Shown here: piece after piece, positions 55,750 to 63,456 of the stretch | Position numbering within the stretch: the first letter of the stretch is position 1 | How the letters are laid out: every line of letters starts with the position of its first letter | Assembly: GCF_037201965.1 (NCBI RefSeq) | Contig: NZ_CP147518.1 | Coordinates: 3,713,001-3,777,000, forward strand | Origin: Spirosoma sp. SC4-14 | Lineage (GTDB): Bacteria; Bacteroidota; Bacteroidia; Cytophagales; Spirosomataceae | Length of the DNA stretch: 64,000 bases | Direction of reading: 5' to 3' | Notes under the pieces: generated by a model | Database searches by the model: none | Seen by the model: only the letters and a program-made list of their open reading frames with translations | What the model was told of the DNA's origin: nothing | Position numbers and translations under genes: made by a program

Positions 55750-57054
55750 TTATTGCCGTTGGTAAACCGCTCTCCTCAGTTGATAAAATACTCGTTCTAT
55801 AAGCCGCAAATCTTCTGTGATAATCTCGCCAGTGGCTTCCATACCTGTCTTATAAACGAGATGTTTAGCATACGTAGTTTGCAATCCATTTGGTAATTCG
55901 ACCGTTGCGGCAAAATAAGAATTGTCCTGTGACGGAATCTGTGAAACGGTATGTATGATGCCTTCTACCGCACCATATTCTTCAAATGGGTATCCCTGAA
56001 ATTTAATAAGTACTTTCTGCCCTGTTTTAACCCGGCCAAAGTTAGCTTGCGGAATTCTCAGTTCACCAAAGTAGTTATTCATTTTTGCTGGTCCTACATA
56101 CATAATCTCAGTGCCAGACTTTATAGGTTGGTTTTCCTGTAAAACCATCGAAAAATGGATATTTCCGGATACTGGAGATTCCAGCAAATAGCGCTTCTTC
56201 CAATCTGTCAGCGCGCTGATTAATGTATTAACCGCCTGTCTGAATTGATTTTTTTGTTCTGTCGTTTGCCGATCTAGTTCTGTAAGTTCTCTACGTTTCT
56301 GGGTTTGGGCGGTTGAGTTAGACGTAATGGCAACCTCTGTCTGTTTTATAGGTAAGCGCTTGGAAATATATTTGCTTTCCTCCCGCTGATAATCCAAAGG
56401 TGATATGTCTCTTCCCTGATACAGTTTTTTATGAATAGCTAACTCTTTTTGCGCCAGTTTTTCATCCTCAATATAAACGGCATACTGTTGCGAAAGCTGC
56501 TGCTGCGTTTTTATCAGATCGGCTAGTTCCTGGTGTAAGAATGCTTTACGTTTGGCATAGTATCTATTCGAGAAAAGCGCAAGCGTTTGGATATACGACT
56601 CCATAAAACTTTCGTAAGCAGGCTGTAATTCGCCTAATTCCTGAAACTGATGGGCAGGAAACGTATTCAGTCGCTCAAATCGATCTATGTTAATGATCTG
56701 GCGCAATGTTTGTAATTGTTTCAGTAATTGTAAGATCTGACCATGATTGGCCGTAGATTCCAGATAAGCTATTGTTTGACCGGCCACTACGTGTTGCTCA
56801 TCATGAACAAAAAGCCTTGTTATTCGACCGTCGAATTTAACGATTACAGGCTTAGGGGCATTCTGAGCAGTCAGCCGGAAGGAGGCAATGACAATGGTCG
56901 GATAATGAATCAGCCAGCTTATGAAAAAGCCAGCCATAACAGCCAGAAAGATAACGGTAATGCCCCAGCGGATAAGCCAGTTAGGAATCTGGTCGATGAA
57001 ATCTCTGACGGCTTCACTTTGGCTATCCTGTTCCTCTATATCTATCGATTCCAT
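55750..57054 (-). CDS. HlyD-family membrane fusion protein of a peptide exporter
   Basis: 434 residues: short cytosolic N-terminus, one membrane helix (about 29-49), biotinyl/lipoyl-like half motif (VKFDGRITRLFVHDEQHVVAGQTIAYLES, about 71-100), a long coiled-coil hairpin (about 160-270) and a beta-barrel domain (FGRVKTGQKVLIKFQGYPFEEYG). It is the last gene of the putative peptide operon; its ATG overlaps the stop of the ABC exporter gene by one base (TAATG). It likely links the exporter to an outer-membrane channel located elsewhere. Confidence 0.92.
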   Translation of the reverse strand: MESIDIEEQDSQSEAVRDFIDQIPNWLIRWGITVIFLAVMAGFFISWLIHYPTIVIASFRLTAQNAPKPVIVKFDGRITRLFVHDEQHVVAGQTIAYLESTANHGQILQLLKQLQTLRQIINIDRFERLNTFPAHQFQELGELQPAYESFMESYIQTLALFSNRYYAKRKAFLHQELADLIKTQQQLSQQYAVYIEDEKLAQKELAIHKKLYQGRDISPLDYQREESKYISKRLPIKQTEVAITSNSTAQTQKRRELTELDRQTTEQKNQFRQAVNTLISALTDWKKRYLLESPVSGNIHFSMVLQENQPIKSGTEIMYVGPAKMNNYFGELRIPQANFGRVKTGQKVLIKFQGYPFEEYGAVEGIIHTVSQIPSQDNSYFAATVELPNGLQTTYAKHLVYKTGMEATGEIITEDLRLIERVFYQLRRAVYQRQ

Positions 57055-59267
57055 TAATTGCCCAGTTCCAGTTGATTTTTTACAAGAGAATGATAGTATT
57101 TTTTCTGGCTTATTAGATCAAGATGAGTGCCGTGCTCAACAATTTGCCCTTTGTCAAGCACGATAATCTGGTCGGCGTTTTTTACAGTGCTCAACCGGTG
57201 TGCGACAATAACGACCGTTCTGTTTTTAAAAAATGTTTCCAGATTATTCATAATGATTGCTTCGTTTGTCGCATCAAGCGCACTGGTTGCTTCATCGAAA
57301 AATAGAAATTCCGGGTTTTTATACACAGCGCGTGCTATCAGAATACGTTGTTTCTGGCCTCCACTAATACCGATTCCGCTAGAGCCGATACGTGTATTAT
57401 AACCATTGGGCAATCCTTCAATAAAGGATTCAATATTGGCTGTTGAAACAGCACTACGAAGTTTTTTACGGTTAATCAGACCATTTGAATCGGATTCACT
57501 TACGTTTCGGGCAATCGAATCCGAAAAGATATACCCTTCCTGCATAACTGTTCCGCACTGACTACGCCAGAAATCGTAACTGATGTGTTTAAGATTACTA
57601 TTACCAACATGGATCTGTCCGAGAGTGGGTTCGTAAAATTTGAGCAGGAGCTTTAGCAACGTTGTTTTTCCGCTGCCACTTGCCCCAACAATAGCTGTAA
57701 CTTTTCCTTCCGGAATTGTAAAGCTGATATTTTTCAGGACGTTTTCAGAAGAACTACTGCCATACCGGAAACTGACATTGTCAAAACGGATGCTTTTTTC
57801 GATGGGCAATTCGTAAATCATACCCGCGTCAGTCGGTTCTTCATCTGGCTTATCATGAATTTCGGTGAGTCGATTCAGGCTGAGTTTGGCATCCTGATAG
57901 GTTCTGATGAAGGTGATAAAATTGTTGATCGGTACGTTCATCTGGCCAACGATATACTGAACCGATAGCATGGAACCAAGTGAAATTTGGCCGTCAATCA
58001 CCGATTTGGCCGCCACGAAGCTGATCAGAATATTTTTGACTTCATTCAGAAATCGTCCCCCTTCATTTTGCGTTTGTGAAAGAGCCATACTGCGGATATT
58101 GAGCCTGAACAAACGGGCTTGTATGGCTTCCCACTCCCAGCGTCGGCGTTTTTCTGATCCGTTGAGTTTGATCTCCTGCATGCCATTGATCAGTTGAATT
58201 GCACTGCTCTGATTGCCTGCCGCCTGATCGAAGTAACGGTAGTCGAGTTCGGCACGTTGCTTCAAAAAGAGCAAAACCCAAAGCATATAGACAGTTGAGC
58301 CGATTAGAAAAATAAAAAACAATTGGGCGTTGAAATAAAATAGAATGGCACCAAAAATGAGGAACGTAATGCCCGAAAAAAGTACGTCTAACGTATTGGC
58401 CGATAGAAATGCCTGCAAACGATTGTGATCCTGAATACGTTGCAGAATATCGCCGGTACCTTTCGCATCGAAAAAGGCGATGGGAAGCCGCATCAGTTTC
58501 ATCATGAAATCGGATAACATACGCAGGTTAACGCGGCTTGTTACGTGTAGCAAAATCCAGCTTCGTAGTACGTTTACACCTGTTTGCGAGACGAATAAAA
58601 CTAGTTGAGCAATCAGGATCAGGTAAATGAAATTTAGGTTTCGGGTATTTATGCCCGTATCGACAATTTGCTGGGTTAAAAACGGTAAGGCTAGCTGGAG
58701 TAGACTGATAGTCAGTAGGCTCAGAAACAACTGTAATCCATAACGATTGTAAGGTCGGAAATAACGAGATAGAAAACCACTGAATGTTTTCTTTTTAATA
58801 TCCGGGGTTTCCAGTTCATAAAATTTCGGAGTGGGCTCAAAAACTAATAATACACCTTCCGACTCCTGCGTTGCTACTTTTTCAGGAATCCAGCCTTTGA
58901 GAAATTCCTGTCGGGTATACGTAATCAGCCCATGGCCCGGATCGGCAACAAGTACTTTGCTCGGATTGGCTTCGTATACAACCACAAAATGCCGTTGACG
59001 CCAGTGAGCTATACATGGTAATGGGATCTGTTCGGCCAGCGTATCATAGGGTGCATTCAGGGCCAGAGTACCAAAGCCAATACGTTCGGCTGCATCGGCA
59101 AGTCCGCCCAATGTCGTACCGTCTCGGGCCAGACTGGCGATCTCGCGCAGGTAAGCCGCGTCCAGTGTTTTGCCGTAAAACTTGCTGATCATGCGCAGGC
59201 AGGTAGGACCACAGTCCATTAAATCGTACTGCCGATAGAACGGATATTTTTTTGCCACGATACCCAA
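57054..59267 (-). CDS. Peptidase C39-containing ABC exporter (double-glycine leader processing)
   Basis: 737 residues. C39 peptidase domain (1-130): QYDLMDCGPTCL with catalytic Cys19, HFVVVY (His93) and ADPGHG (Asp109). Six-helix membrane domain (about 165-440) follows, then an ATPase with IVGASGSGKTTLL (Walker A), SGGQKQRILIARA (signature) and FLFFDEATSALD (Walker B). It should cut a precursor after Gly-Gly and export the released peptide. The obvious substrate is the 53-residue peptide encoded at 62705-62866. Adjacent genes abut or overlap, indicating one operon. Confidence 0.94.
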   Translation of the reverse strand: MGIVAKKYPFYRQYDLMDCGPTCLRMISKFYGKTLDAAYLREIASLARDGTTLGGLADAAERIGFGTLALNAPYDTLAEQIPLPCIAHWRQRHFVVVYEANPSKVLVADPGHGLITYTRQEFLKGWIPEKVATQESEGVLLVFEPTPKFYELETPDIKKKTFSGFLSRYFRPYNRYGLQLFLSLLTISLLQLALPFLTQQIVDTGINTRNLNFIYLILIAQLVLFVSQTGVNVLRSWILLHVTSRVNLRMLSDFMMKLMRLPIAFFDAKGTGDILQRIQDHNRLQAFLSANTLDVLFSGITFLIFGAILFYFNAQLFFIFLIGSTVYMLWVLLFLKQRAELDYRYFDQAAGNQSSAIQLINGMQEIKLNGSEKRRRWEWEAIQARLFRLNIRSMALSQTQNEGGRFLNEVKNILISFVAAKSVIDGQISLGSMLSVQYIVGQMNVPINNFITFIRTYQDAKLSLNRLTEIHDKPDEEPTDAGMIYELPIEKSIRFDNVSFRYGSSSSENVLKNISFTIPEGKVTAIVGASGSGKTTLLKLLLKFYEPTLGQIHVGNSNLKHISYDFWRSQCGTVMQEGYIFSDSIARNVSESDSNGLINRKKLRSAVSTANIESFIEGLPNGYNTRIGSSGIGISGGQKQRILIARAVYKNPEFLFFDEATSALDATNEAIIMNNLETFFKNRTVVIVAHRLSTVKNADQIIVLDKGQIVEHGTHLDLISQKKYYHSLVKNQLELGN

Positions 59268-60752
59268 TTAGTTCGTTCCCACTGATTTTCGCAGATCTTC
59301 AACCGATCCATAGGCTGCCTGACCGTTCAGTGGCCATGAGGTATAGATTTTATCGATGGCCAGGCTCTGGTTTGTAATAAGCTTATAAACAGCCTTTCCA
59401 CGGTCGCCCATGGGCATGACTCGGCCATCGGCGCGGAAGAACAATAAATCGCCTGACCAGAGGAGCTTTTGCTGCGGAAAATAGAAGACCAGATGTTCGG
59501 CCGTATGGCTGGTACCTTTACCAATTTCGTAGGCAACTACTTCCGTCTGAGCATCTGTATATATTTTCTTACCATCCGTAGGGACGAAATCGAATTTGTA
59601 GGTTGTTTCACTCGACAATTGTGTTTCGCTTAATGTATGAGTATTGCCCAGTAGCTTTCTAAAATACGTTTCATTGCCTGATGTGGTAATGAATGTTACA
59701 GGCAGAGCCGCGAACGCACGAATGCCACCTGCATGGTCGGGGTGATGGTGCGTAAGGAAAATCTGTTTGAGTGGCTTCTGTGGGTATCTTTGCTGGATTT
59801 CTTGTAAAATCTGTGTGTTCAACCCAATTCCTGATGGACTTTCGAACAAGGCTGTATGGTCGGCGAATTGTACAATCAGCACTTTATTGTTCTGTGAATT
59901 AATCTTAACCAGATCAATGTTTGGGGCAATCGTTTCAAATGACAACAAGTCTGCTTTTTTTACGATCTGCGGTAGAGCATTCCGAAACGCTATTGGCGTC
60001 CATTTGATTTTTAAATCGCTGGTATCTGGTTTAATATCGAAACGTATGTCTTTATACGTTACATCGCGCTCCGCTTTACCGAACTCATAATCAGTACGGC
60101 TTTTGGGCGTTTTCAAACCGTTCTTATCTTCATAGCCGTTGTATTCGCTGCTAAACGTTACGTCACCATAGCGGTCGCTATAACCCAGCGTTTCTGTTTT
60201 ATTGAGTAAGTGAGTCTTTTTATTGATATACAACGTAACAGCATCATTGGGTTTATAGCTGAATGATAGCAGGTAATGGCCTTCCTGTTGACCTAGGTAA
60301 CGTAATGACTGCCGATTTTCGCGGGCAAATTGCAGGAGTTTAACAGGTAGTAGGCGAGCAGCCTCATATCGAAAATCCTGGGCTATGCCCCGAACAGGTA
60401 TTCGATTGTAGTAGCTGATTGAATAGAGCGAGTCCGCTTTGCTTACAGCCGTACGGGTGTATGAACCGCCATTGTTTTGAATGGCTGAGTGCAGGTAAGC
60501 AATCTGTTCATCCTGAAAAAAAGCAACAGTTTCATCGACAGGTATTTCTTTCGTTTTTTCCGGGGTTTCGTAATGACCCAGATTATGTATGGTTCCGCTG
60601 CTGTTGAGCAGAATATGATCTGGAATCGTTTTACCGGTTGCCTGAATGGCTTTATCTAAAATGGCTAATGCTTTCTGGTAATTAGCTGTTGTCTGTGCCC
60701 GTACTTGAAACGTACTAACGGCTAAGGCTAACGTTAAATAAATTAATTTCAT
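59268..60752 (-). CDS. Secreted metallo-beta-lactamase-fold hydrolase in the peptide cluster
   Basis: 494 residues with a signal peptide (cleavage near VRAQ, residue 20). The first 260 residues are a beta-rich domain; the C-terminal MBL domain has LTHHHPDHAGG (metal ligands His335, His337, Asp339, His340), GTSHTAEHLVFYF and WSGDLLF. Its stop codon is immediately followed by the exporter start, and its start overlaps the upstream gene by 4 nt, so it belongs to the cluster. An extracytoplasmic hydrolase could mature, degrade or protect against the exported peptide; no direct evidence decides. Confidence 0.88.
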   Translation of the reverse strand: MKLIYLTLALAVSTFQVRAQTTANYQKALAILDKAIQATGKTIPDHILLNSSGTIHNLGHYETPEKTKEIPVDETVAFFQDEQIAYLHSAIQNNGGSYTRTAVSKADSLYSISYYNRIPVRGIAQDFRYEAARLLPVKLLQFARENRQSLRYLGQQEGHYLLSFSYKPNDAVTLYINKKTHLLNKTETLGYSDRYGDVTFSSEYNGYEDKNGLKTPKSRTDYEFGKAERDVTYKDIRFDIKPDTSDLKIKWTPIAFRNALPQIVKKADLLSFETIAPNIDLVKINSQNNKVLIVQFADHTALFESPSGIGLNTQILQEIQQRYPQKPLKQIFLTHHHPDHAGGIRAFAALPVTFITTSGNETYFRKLLGNTHTLSETQLSSETTYKFDFVPTDGKKIYTDAQTEVVAYEIGKGTSHTAEHLVFYFPQQKLLWSGDLLFFRADGRVMPMGDRGKAVYKLITNQSLAIDKIYTSWPLNGQAAYGSVEDLRKSVGTN

Positions 60753-61909
60753 ACAACGCGCGTTTTAGGGAGTGGGTTGAGGTGGCTGAACAGATTGTAT
60801 TGAAAAGTATACGGCTGATTTTGATAAGAAAACCCAGACAAAGCCGACTGATACTTCTGACGAATATAGTTATAACCGATGGCAAACTGTCGATGAAAAT
60901 CCATGCTAGTTTCAGTAAGAATGTTAGGGTTATTCAGGTTGACAAGATCAAAACCAAACTTGTCGAGGTAAAAACCTAATCGGCCAAGGGCTTCATGACG
61001 TAAGGCATCATCGAAATTTGAAGGGCTGCTAAGAAGCGTATCCAGCGAATGCAGAATGGTTGTATAAGTAAACAGCCCATGGAAGGCTCCATAGACACCT
61101 CTACGTTCTCCATCATATCCCGTAAATTCTTTTAGCGGAAAATCTTTCGGAACCCGTAAATACTGATTCGTATCTAGTGTTAAGGCATTAAAAATAATAT
61201 GCCCACACTGATGCGCAATATCATCAATGAAAAAGACGGCTGATTTCGTTGTGTTTTCTACATTGAAATAAGCCGTACCATGATGCATGATACCAGCAAA
61301 CGAATGATGCTCGGGTGGGCTGTTGAATACGACAAACTCGCGCGTAACGGTTTCTATAAGCTGCCAGAAATCAGGTAAATTCGTTTGAAAGAAGTGAACG
61401 GCCAGAAAAAGAGATTTCTGATAATTTTGAACAGTTAGTTCTGTTGACTCGTAAAACGTAATATTCTTTTGATACCCTAATAAATCGGTAGGATGCCAGC
61501 AAAACCGAATTGAACTACTGGGTAAAAATTGATTGGGAATTAACAACTGATCCAACTCTGTAGTACTGAGTGTAAACGTTTCATACGGCTTAGCCCGAAC
61601 GTAGCCTAGATTGGGCAAATTTACCAGCCCGAACCGATCTGCTTTGACAGTTAGAGACGATGGCCGATCTTCCACCGGTATGTATCCAAATAGGCATTGT
61701 TCCAGCGGAGTTAACTCTGATTTGTCGATGTCAGATAAAAATTGGCAGAACAATGTTGGCTCTAAAAAGATGCGATCATCATTATAATCAAGTAACTCAA
61801 ATAAAGTTTCATCTTTCTGGTATACAGCCATTCGGATTGTATCGGAGAGGGAAGCTTGATGATTGTCTAACTGTTCCTTCTTGAAAGGGAAATATAGTAA
61901 GGTATTCAT
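60749..61909 (-). CDS. Putative peptide-modifying enzyme of HExxH (aKG-HExxH-like) type with HQCGH motif
   Basis: 386 residues, cytosolic. By eye the region 180-300 follows the layout of HEXXH-domain RiPP proteins, some of which are 2-oxoglutarate-dependent peptide beta-hydroxylases: a conserved run before NTTKSAVFFIDDIAHQCGH, then a variable loop and the GERRGVYGAFHGLF motif (Arg270, His277), where relatives have RP..GV.HG. The expected HExxH reads HQCGH (His233-His237), so both metal-binding His are kept but Glu is Gln. The N-terminal half has no recognised domain. Overlaps the MBL gene by 4 nt. The family link is tentative; chemistry is unproven. Confidence 0.55.
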   Translation of the reverse strand: MNTLLYFPFKKEQLDNHQASLSDTIRMAVYQKDETLFELLDYNDDRIFLEPTLFCQFLSDIDKSELTPLEQCLFGYIPVEDRPSSLTVKADRFGLVNLPNLGYVRAKPYETFTLSTTELDQLLIPNQFLPSSSIRFCWHPTDLLGYQKNITFYESTELTVQNYQKSLFLAVHFFQTNLPDFWQLIETVTREFVVFNSPPEHHSFAGIMHHGTAYFNVENTTKSAVFFIDDIAHQCGHIIFNALTLDTNQYLRVPKDFPLKEFTGYDGERRGVYGAFHGLFTYTTILHSLDTLLSSPSNFDDALRHEALGRLGFYLDKFGFDLVNLNNPNILTETSMDFHRQFAIGYNYIRQKYQSALSGFSYQNQPYTFQYNLFSHLNPLPKTRVV

Positions 61910-61952
61910 GATAAATTATATATCCACATGTAATTTTATTGGAATGTTAATG

Positions 61953-62612
61953 TTAGAGGCTTAAAAAGAAAGGAGATAATCCAATCGAGTTTATAGCCAT
62001 GTGCAATAAAATAGAAAATATTAAATTGTATTTTAGTCGAGCTATTGAAAATAGTATGCCGCTAATTATTTTAGGTGTAATTATTGCGATAATGTAAAGT
62101 TTGTTGCTCTCTATGGGATTGTAGTTAACCAAATGAAGAATGGCAAATAAAACAGAGTAAAAAATAGTTATTTTCCATGGGTTATTAGTTAAAGTAAATT
62201 TGGATAAAAGAATATTTACGTTATATTTATTTAACAAAAAAAATAATGTGAACCCAGTGATAATTGCTATTATTATTATTGTGTAATTAGTACTATTAAT
62301 GACATAGAGGTGTGTATGGAAGAAAAATGATAAAATAAAATAAAGAAAGAACGTTAAACTAACAGATAAATTTATATTATTAAGCTTTAAAGGTAATCTG
62401 AATGATAGCTCTTCAACTATAGGACCCAAAATACAATAAAGTGATATAATTTCTAGGGTACTTTGATCTTTTCTAAACTTGAACAAATGACTTTCGGGAA
62501 GATTAATACTTAATTTATTAAGTAGATATTCAATCAATACAGTGGATAAAATAGATAAAAATAAAATGGAAAATAAAAAAATGAAGAAATCTTTGATTGG
62601 TTTTAATGACAT
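61953..62612 (-). CDS. CPBP-family intramembrane metalloprotease
   Basis: 219 residues, very hydrophobic, six or seven helices. All CPBP (Abi) motifs are present: EELSFR (Glu67, Glu68, Arg72), FAILH (Phe156, His160) and HMAIN (His204, Asn208). In peptide-bacteriocin loci such proteins often give self-immunity or mature precursors. The gene is strikingly AT-rich, with runs of ATT/AAA codons, unlike the flanking genes, suggesting recent acquisition. It lies between the precursor and the modifying-enzyme genes on the same strand. Confidence 0.9.
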   Translation of the reverse strand: MSLKPIKDFFIFLFSILFLSILSTVLIEYLLNKLSINLPESHLFKFRKDQSTLEIISLYCILGPIVEELSFRLPLKLNNINLSVSLTFFLYFILSFFFHTHLYVINSTNYTIIIIAIITGFTLFFLLNKYNVNILLSKFTLTNNPWKITIFYSVLFAILHLVNYNPIESNKLYIIAIITPKIISGILFSIARLKYNLIFSILLHMAINSIGLSPFFLSL

Positions 62613-62655
62613 AATAGCTAATGAGAAAATTTATATATGATTTATTCTTAAGTCA

Positions 62656-62697
62656 TCTTCCCACCTACCATTATTAAAACAATGGTAGGTGGGAAGA
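62656..62697 (-). terminator. Hairpin after the precursor peptide gene
   Basis: Perfect 17-bp arms (62656-62672, 62681-62697) with an 8-nt loop, starting 8 nt after the precursor stop codon. There is no strong T-run on the minus strand, which suits partial termination and mRNA stabilisation, so that the short precursor message outnumbers the rest of the operon. Confidence 0.8.
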
Positions 62698-62704
62698 CAG
62701 TAAA

Positions 62705-62866
62705 CTAAAAGAAAATAAATTGTTCAATTTTTTTCAAAACCTCTGCTACATGGCACCAATCTACATCACCACCTTTAATAGCTTCCAAATTAACTTCAAC
62801 GTTTTGTGCTAATTGATCTTTTTGCGTTGCCTGTGCTTTTAATTCATCTAATGATAATCGTTTCAT
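62705..62866 (-). CDS. Double-glycine precursor peptide (putative bacteriocin/RiPP)
   Basis: 53 residues from ATG at 62866. The leader begins MKRLSLDELKAQ, a pattern typical of Bacteroidota natural-product precursors, and ends LEAIKGG at residue 33. The 20-residue remainder has one Trp and one Cys (DVDWCHV) near its start and a hydrophobic end (EQFIFF). A longer frame from 62929 is possible but would add an unusual leader and cross the likely promoter. Downstream genes supply a C39 exporter, HlyD adaptor, CPBP protease and possible modifying enzyme, so cleavage after Gly33 and export are expected. Confidence 0.75.
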   Translation of the reverse strand: MKRLSLDELKAQATQKDQLAQNVEVNLEAIKGGDVDWCHVAEVLKKIEQFIFF

Positions 62867-62875
62867 GTATGTTTG

Positions 62876-62934
62876 TGCCAAAGGGAATAGTTGTGTTGCA
62901 ATAGTGCGTTGTTGCTTTGGCAGGAGCAAAGATG
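62876..62934 (-). promoter_or_regulatory. Promoter and leader of the precursor peptide gene
   Basis: A near-consensus -7 box CATCTTTG lies at 62934-62927 (7 of 8 positions), predicting a start near 62920 and a leader of about 54 nt. Within it an 8-bp inverted repeat CTTTGGCA/TGCCAAAG (62915-62922, 62876-62883) could be an RNA hairpin or an operator for the divergent XRE-type regulator. Confidence 0.5.
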
Positions 62935-63041: not shown

Positions 63042-63049
63042 AATGTTTG
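63042..63049 (+). promoter_or_regulatory. -7-like element of the XRE regulator gene
   Basis: AATGTTTG matches TAnnTTTG at 7 of 8 positions. The transcript would start near 63056, about 8 nt ahead of the ATG at 63064, so this favours that start over the ATG at 63043, which lies within the box. Confidence 0.4.
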
Positions 63050-63063
63050 ATCATTTAGTTTAT

Positions 63064-63456
63064 ATGACATTAGGAACCAGACTTCGCAAATCCCGCCAGA
63101 AACGACGCTTATCACAGGCTGAAGTTGCTGAACTCGTTGGTATATCGCAGACAACGTATTATAACTGGGAAGCGGACGTATCAGGTATGCGGATCGACTA
63201 TTTGCCCATGCTACTACGGGTGCTTGATATCGATATTGATGAGCTATTGCCTGAGATTACTGTTGCTAATACCGCTCGCAAACAGACTGATGGCGAAGTA
63301 AGAAAAAATGAAGAGGAAGCCGGGCAGCAGCAACTACATGATCTCTACAAAGATTTACTCAGTAGTAAGGACGAAGTTATTAAACTTCTAAAACAGGAGA
63401 ACGAAGTGCTCAGAATCAGGAATGTTCAGCTTGAAGAAACACAGAAAGCCGCGTAG
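63064..63456 (+). CDS. XRE-family helix-turn-helix regulator with C-terminal coiled coil
   Basis: 130 residues from ATG at 63064. Residues about 3-60 form an XRE/Cro-type HTH (LGTRLRKSRQKRRLSQAEV, ELVGISQTTYYNWE). After a linker, residues about 85-130 are a charged coiled coil (SSKDEVIKLLKQENEVLRI), probably for dimerisation. It is divergent from the precursor peptide gene (197 bp apart) and convergent with hslU, so it is a candidate regulator of the peptide operon (inference from position). Confidence 0.85.
   Translation: MTLGTRLRKSRQKRRLSQAEVAELVGISQTTYYNWEADVSGMRIDYLPMLLRVLDIDIDELLPEITVANTARKQTDGEVRKNEEEAGQQQLHDLYKDLLSSKDEVIKLLKQENEVLRIRNVQLEETQKAA

Follow-up and report, generated by a model that had tools for sequence, protein, structure and literature searches.

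What does a compact six-gene operon in Spirosoma sp. SC4-14 make, and what happens to its peptide before export? The operon occupies positions 55750–62866 of the window, by which we mean the whole 64,000-nucleotide stretch that was analysed (contig NZ_CP147518.1, positions 3,713,001 to 3,777,000, from a genome of 8.1 Mb in two contigs with a completeness of 100). As judged from open reading frames and their translations, six frames, all on the minus strand, form one unit encoding a 53-residue precursor peptide, a CPBP membrane protein, a protein with the motif HQxxH (the HQxxH protein), a metallo-beta-lactamase (MBL)-fold hydrolase, a C39 peptidase-ABC exporter and a HlyD-type adaptor. Re-reading these frames confirmed the gene order, tight spacing and 53-codon frame given in a preliminary description of this DNA. 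Comparison with relatives revealed an invariant Cys-His dyad in the precursors, similarity of the predicted HQxxH protein fold to an oxygenase domain and joint divergence of the peptide tail and the CPBP protein. With moderate confidence, we read the operon as producing a ribosomally synthesized and post-translationally modified peptide (RiPP), whose dyad would be oxidised in the cytoplasm before cleavage and export by C39/HlyD, with the CPBP protein conferring immunity to a bacteriocin-like product.

Precursors with an invariant Cys-His dyad

The precursor (62705..62866, minus strand) comprises a 33-residue leader ending in Gly-Gly (GG) and a 20-residue core with Cys-His at core positions 5–6 (GG-X4-C-H). 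We compared 20 family clusters, namely that of the window and those on 19 stretches from 18 relatives (one Emticicia genome counts as two units, and one Spirosoma cluster split over two contigs counts once). GG-X4-CH was present in 20/20 precursors, in which the leader and GG are conserved, C and H are invariant and the remaining core is variable. No other core element is fixed; the core has a constant N-terminal block, to which the dyad belongs, and a hypervariable tail. The GG peptide proposed in the preliminary description was thus conserved throughout, and its most telling feature, the dyad, had gone unnoticed. As a short precursor with a GG-ending leader linked to a C39 exporter, it has what characterizes C39-exported GG-leader peptides, and the invariant dyad and linked enzyme give indirect support to its being a RiPP substrate.

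The HQxxH protein was found in 19 of 222 genomes of the family (SC4-14 included) and the precursor in exactly those 19. As the precursor profile was built from the 19 positive genomes themselves, this co-occurrence is partly circular and mainly shows absence from the other 203 genomes. In SC4-14 itself there is a single HQxxH protein, and only one precursor match is good (E 6.2e-19; the next has E 1.67). In every family contig that extends beyond the HQxxH gene, C39 and HlyD frames come after it, some of them broken or cut (two contigs, L041 and L042, stop within this gene or shortly after it). The earlier proposal, an operon for a GG-leader peptide that is exported by C39/HlyD and linked to an unusual enzyme, is supported: the genes are linked in relatives and the 53-codon frame is conserved.

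Scanning genome contigs with the HQxxH profile yielded 34 loci, 14 of them clusters already seen and 20 new, the latter including Gammaproteobacteria, Zetaproteobacteria and Planctomycetes. The records of L057, L064 and L066, three of those from outside Bacteroidota, and that of L060 are metagenome-assembled, so their taxonomic assignment depends on the quality of the bins; the record of L058 (Saccharophagus) carries no such mark. Two loci (L063, L075) start inside the HQxxH gene at a contig end and are not judgeable. In all 18 assessable new loci, a Cys-His peptide lies less than 10 kb from the enzyme gene, after a glycine-containing site. These loci hold 23 such peptides, with a spacing of four residues in 20, five in two and six in one, and with GG as the site in 16. 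Most lie just upstream of the HQxxH gene, with distances of 1 to 3 kb in L062, L067 and L074 and of about 3 to 9.5 kb in L065, L068 and L072. The HQxxH protein alone led to these loci. Within them, the Cys-His peptides were selected as short frames that match a GG-CH pattern and have leader-like N-termini as judged by eye, a choice that favours finding them. Further matches of the pattern, lying on the opposite strand or lacking a leader, were set aside as chance frames: two in L065 and a single one in each of L064, L071, L072 and L076.

For comparison, we used the TIGR04149 GG-leader peptides of Bacteroidetes, which also occur in genomes of the same family. The control comprised 30 TIGR04149 loci, one per genome, from a much longer match list covering the 222 genomes; two had no GG/GA site. 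None of the other 28 carried Cys-His 3–6 residues past GG/GA, and two had CH elsewhere in the core. The window precursor, unlike these peptides, is unmatched by the TIGR04149 model at E ≤ 1, and three of the 20 family members match it (best E 0.089). In Pfam its sole match was CagD, below the cut-off (E 0.1, 12.9 of 25 bits).

Three wider peptides, from Planctomycetes and a Zetaproteobacterium (L057:9601-9927, L064:9522-9932 and L066:9605-9871), share a G-I/V-W-I-x-ELVPVF tail. No C39 exporter was seen in the examined DNA of these loci, where the L066 contig stops just after the HQxxH gene. The Planctomycete precursors (L057, L064) open with what we take to be twin-arginine-like signals. On the Emticicia contig (L026/L043), two precursor-HQxxH units in tandem share one C39/HlyD pair, and their precursors differ in tail and in neighbour gene (CPBP versus Peptidase-MA-like).

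The HQxxH protein and its relatives

The 386-residue HQxxH protein (60749..61909, minus strand), with HQCGH as its motif, had no match in a Pfam search. An alignment of 30 HQxxH proteins takes in 28 of the 34 loci, leaving out those with a broken gene (L048, L051, L059) or one cut by the contig end (L061, L063, L075); in L058, L060, L064 and L067 the frame was started inside the longest open reading frame. Eight residues are invariant in all 30: G211, H233, Q234, H237, R270, H277, T281 and R310. H233, Q234, H237, R270, H277 and R310 would suit binding of a metal and a co-substrate, going by their conservation. The HExxH motif as such is not present, as 30/30 proteins read HQxxH, keeping both His and replacing Glu by Gln. 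In zincins, the Glu of HExxH is the general base. Its replacement throughout the family argues against peptidase activity.

The AlphaFold2 model (predicted local distance difference test score 94) matched four chains of PDB 8s5f in a fold comparison (E 2.1e-9 to 1.7e-8; for the match at E 2.1e-9, probability 1.00 and template modelling score 0.55/0.62), and these were the only matches with E ≤ 0.001, the next having E 0.95. The title of 8s5f describes, in substance, the HExxH domain of ChlB, a novel alpha-ketoglutarate-dependent oxygenase, and the window protein is predicted to share this fold. In addition, TIGR04267 ("aKG-HExxH-type peptide beta-hydroxylase") was matched by 14/30 members at E ≤ 1 (best 2e-6) and, in two other sets, by 7/14 members and by six of ten diverse ones; the match in L064 spans 1–175 of 177 model positions. 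The protein is probably a sister branch of TIGR04267 that would work like it, judging by the model and these profile matches; it is not filed under that family because no member reaches the cut-off. Canonical TIGR04267 members were not found in 148 genomes of the phylum, but the controls of this search gave no match either. The "HExxH-like enzyme" of the preliminary description resembles an alpha-ketoglutarate oxygenase domain, with HQ in place of HE.

Compared with alpha-ketoglutarate-HExxH RiPP enzymes (the ChlB domain, PflC/PosC, BpmH and PesO; TIGR04267/IPR026337), the HQxxH protein is alike in fold, in sub-threshold profile similarity and in linkage to a precursor-like peptide. It differs in HQxxH, in lying below the curated cut-off, in being a stand-alone protein of 386 residues and in having precursors with a fixed Cys-His. 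The six window genes, to which this search was confined, also include no radical SAM or MNIO enzyme. As PMC13060819 reports, the residues that known family enzymes hydroxylate are His, Asp, Phe, Gln and Pro; these enzymes were recognised as oxygenases only in 2024 (cited in PMC13060819), and branches described since show varied chemistry. We consider the HQxxH protein the probable modifying enzyme of the Cys-His dyad.

CPBP protein, hydrolase, exporter and RNA elements

The gene after the precursor (61953..62612, minus strand) encodes a 219-residue CPBP (CAAX/Abi-type) membrane protein, which matches PF02517 (Rce1-like) at 23.9 bits against a cut-off of 22.4; its relative in L025 scores 21.4, just under it. 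By eye it carries EELSFR and FAILH, corresponding to the CPBP motifs EExxxR and FxxxH as defined in PMC9298176. In six of the 20 clusters (15 pairs), the peptide tail and CPBP diverge more than the HQxxH protein, MBL and C39. Between the window and L024, identity is 87% for C39, 69% for the HQxxH protein, 33% for CPBP and 21% for the tail; between the Dyadobacter clusters L031 and L034, it is 96% for C39, 96% for MBL, 77% for HlyD, 27% for CPBP and 6% for the tail. Over the 15 pairs, tail identity was 6 to 47%, figures that are rough because the tails are short, and CPBP identity 24 to 37%. The tail type also goes with the presence of CPBP: the ten clusters with CPBP beside the precursor have aromatic tails (15–26%), and the ten without have 0–9% (Mann-Whitney, 10 v 10, uncorrected for kinship: aromatics p 1.1e-4, bulky hydrophobics 2.4e-4, hydropathy 0.014). 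The second Emticicia unit was counted as without CPBP, though a CPBP gene sits further downstream. CPBP proteins have been reported as bacteriocin immunity proteins and also as peptide processors and receptors (PMC9298176). This one was earlier read as the operon's protease, but a dedicated role in processing seems less likely than one in immunity, and we consider it the probable self-immunity partner, changing together with the tail, on the strength of their covariation.

The two-domain MBL-fold protein (59268..60752, minus strand, 494 residues; Lactamase_B 57 bits) has a beta-rich N-terminal half and a C-terminal half with a B1-type metallo-beta-lactamase fold. HxHxDH, a third His and Asp are present, with one of 15 aligned proteins (L053) having no DH. 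Its N-terminus has a signal-like stretch; here and in the other hydrolases, secretion was read from N-termini by eye. The MBL protein of the preliminary description is no constant part of the operon, as relatives add or substitute Peptidase-MA-like or amidohydrolase proteins. At least one gene of these three types is found before or after the HQxxH gene in 19/20 family clusters. The Peptidase-MA-like label rests on an HELVH...NEG motif, and two of two such proteins tested had no Pfam match.

The exporter (57054..59267, minus strand, 737 residues) matches Peptidase_C39 (111 bits), ABC_membrane (106) and ABC_tran (109), with the catalytic Cys in the context QYDLMDCGPTCLRM. It is followed by the 434-residue periplasmic adaptor (55750..57054, minus strand; HlyD_3 58 bits). 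The HQxxH gene shares 4 nt with the MBL gene, which abuts the C39 gene, and the C39 and HlyD genes have 1 nt in common.

Some clusters hold further genes. L030 (1341-2363) and L062 have a ThiF-like protein between precursor and HQxxH protein, in place of CPBP, possibly for a second modification; L030 also has an alpha/beta hydrolase. A pair consisting of a small protein, labelled TonB-like by eye and without a Pfam match, and a TPR protein recurs in several clusters (L028:7236-8487, L029:7369-8575 and others). In the window, a divergent helix-turn-helix gene, XRE-type by eye (63043-63456, plus strand), lies upstream of the precursor and is a possible regulator.

Two RNA elements flank the precursor gene. 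A stem (GCCAAAG / CTTTGGC) in the 5' untranslated region (62867..62930, minus strand), found by folding and by alignment of relatives, ends shortly before the ATG and has one match in its own genome. Its arms are changed yet still pair in several relatives; in the five of ten aligned regions whose arms line up, 97.5% of cells are paired and one pair is changed on both sides, which is suggestive only because 107/500 shuffles do as well. Directly after the precursor stop, folding gave a perfect 20-bp hairpin without a T run (62655..62698, minus strand; -38 kcal/mol and z -7.6 over an 81-nt stretch). The first 60 nt past the stop have z ≤ -3 in 16/20 clusters, window included, though sequences differ. 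This hairpin may raise the level of precursor over that of the downstream genes. Rfam gave no credible family (five matches, all far under gathering scores), and scans for promoters and terminators did no better than chance.

A proposed pathway and its alternatives

In the pathway that we favour, the GG leader would bring the precursor to the HQxxH enzyme, which, as an alpha-ketoglutarate/iron oxygenase-like protein, would oxidatively modify the dyad four residues past the GG site. The modification would most simply be beta-hydroxylation of His, with a Cys-His crosslink as another possibility. The C39 domain would then cut after GG, and the ABC exporter and HlyD would secrete the short product (20 residues here). 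CPBP would shield the producer against tails of the type that it makes itself. Outside the cytoplasm, the secreted MBL-fold protein may act on the exported peptide, by trimming or in self-protection, and the product would most likely be a bacteriocin-like peptide against close relatives. Class II bacteriocin operons with CPBP/Abi immunity, described in part in PMC9298176, are alike in GG leader, C39 exporter, HlyD-type adaptor and a small CPBP membrane protein beside the precursor. They differ from this operon, which has a Gram-negative host, a putative tailoring enzyme, a secreted hydrolase and a constant Cys-His block. A plain class II bacteriocin was considered and rejected as the principal explanation.

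Several observations weigh against this pathway. No HQxxH protein reaches the TIGR04267 cut-off of 40 bits (window 18.2, best relative 27.9), 16/30 have no match to that model at all, and no relative turned up when PDB sequences were searched with the HQxxH profile and with two single members. Because Gln stands for Glu in all the HQxxH proteins, what characterised enzymes do chemically may not apply to them. C39 export is not universal, as no adjacent C39 exporter was seen in four loci (Planctomycete L057 and L064, Taibaiella L055 and F. jejuense L056) and seven of the 23 wider precursors have GH, CG, GQ or GR at the site in place of GG. Tail divergence does not hold in every pair, as the tails of L024 and L031 are 47% identical and their CPBP proteins 37%, and CPBP proteins can process peptides rather than confer immunity (PMC9298176). 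L029 has no hydrolase gene among the three types scored. HQxxH, C39 or HlyD frames are broken in L024, L032, L034, L037, L040 and L060, which are either decaying clusters or sequencing errors. In addition, the HQxxH protein is rare in the phylum, occurring in at least 5 of 395 sampled genomes, SC4-14 included, with up to four candidates scored per genome.

The same genes could instead serve a signal, in that the product could be a pheromone released by the C39/HlyD exporter, with CPBP as its processing protease. C39 exporters also export pheromones. Among CPBP proteins, SilX and MroQ act on behalf of signalling peptides (PMC9298176). However, the six window genes are all assigned and include no receptor or kinase (relatives' clusters not having been searched for these), and we consider a signal unlikely.

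A metallophore or metal-buffering peptide, with the dyad, modified or not, as metal ligand and no toxin involved, would account for Cys-His being the only fixed core element, as both residues are metal ligands. MNIO-modified bufferins set a precedent for metal-chelating RiPPs (PMC12452194), and MNIO-modified RiPPs in general (bufferins, Dyb/Chr peptides) are alike in their short precursors and a conserved Cys modified by iron enzymes; one of these peptides, DybA, comes from Dyadobacter (PMC12636315). Theirs is another enzyme family, with a CPACGMG-type motif where ours has Cys-His. A metallophore, however, has no need of hypervariable tails that diverge with CPBP, and we consider this function quite unlikely.

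Oxidative backbone cleavage at or beside the dyad would leave a very short product and a tail discarded as a follower. PflC/PosC hydroxylate Gln and cut the backbone at a conserved motif, where an amide is left behind (PMC12636437). Set against this, the tail type tracks CPBP presence and diverges with CPBP, an indication that the active product includes the tail, and we strongly doubt such a cleavage. Equally doubtful is a role of the HQxxH protein as peptidase or pseudopeptidase, trimming or carrying the precursor with no side-chain modification. In favour of it, HQxxH stands in the place of HExxH, the ChlB fold has been likened to zincin proteases and truncated peptides are hydrolysed by PflC (PMC12636437), the last two points also counting against an oxygenase, but the general-base Glu is Gln in 30/30, only the ChlB oxygenase domain matches significantly among solved structures, C39 already explains leader removal and trimming does not need a fixed Cys-His. 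A zincin protease was rejected as the principal explanation.

Returning to the oxidised, exported RiPP, searches of open-licence full-text literature showed neither GG-X4-CH precursors nor HQxxH enzymes nor this combination of genes to have been described, which is not proof of absence, and the operon appears to point to an undescribed family of peptide natural products. A bolder proposal, which we regard as a long shot, is a new RiPP class (Bacteroidota, Gamma-/Zetaproteobacteria and Planctomycetes) in which an HQxxH alpha-ketoglutarate oxygenase would make a cyclic or crosslinked Cys-His warhead, seemingly interchangeable secreted hydrolases (B1 metallo-beta-lactamase-like, amidohydrolase and Peptidase-MA-like) would protect the producer by opening the ring, in the way that a beta-lactamase acts on a lactam, and the tail would set target specificity. 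For the enzymes, a branch with Gln for Glu and one fixed Cys-His target predicts which pair of residues is the substrate, and the reaction can be tested. GG-X4-CH near an HQxxH gene provides a genome-mining handle in environmental Bacteroidota and other phyla, and the family provides naturally varied tails along with the CPBP partners that match them.

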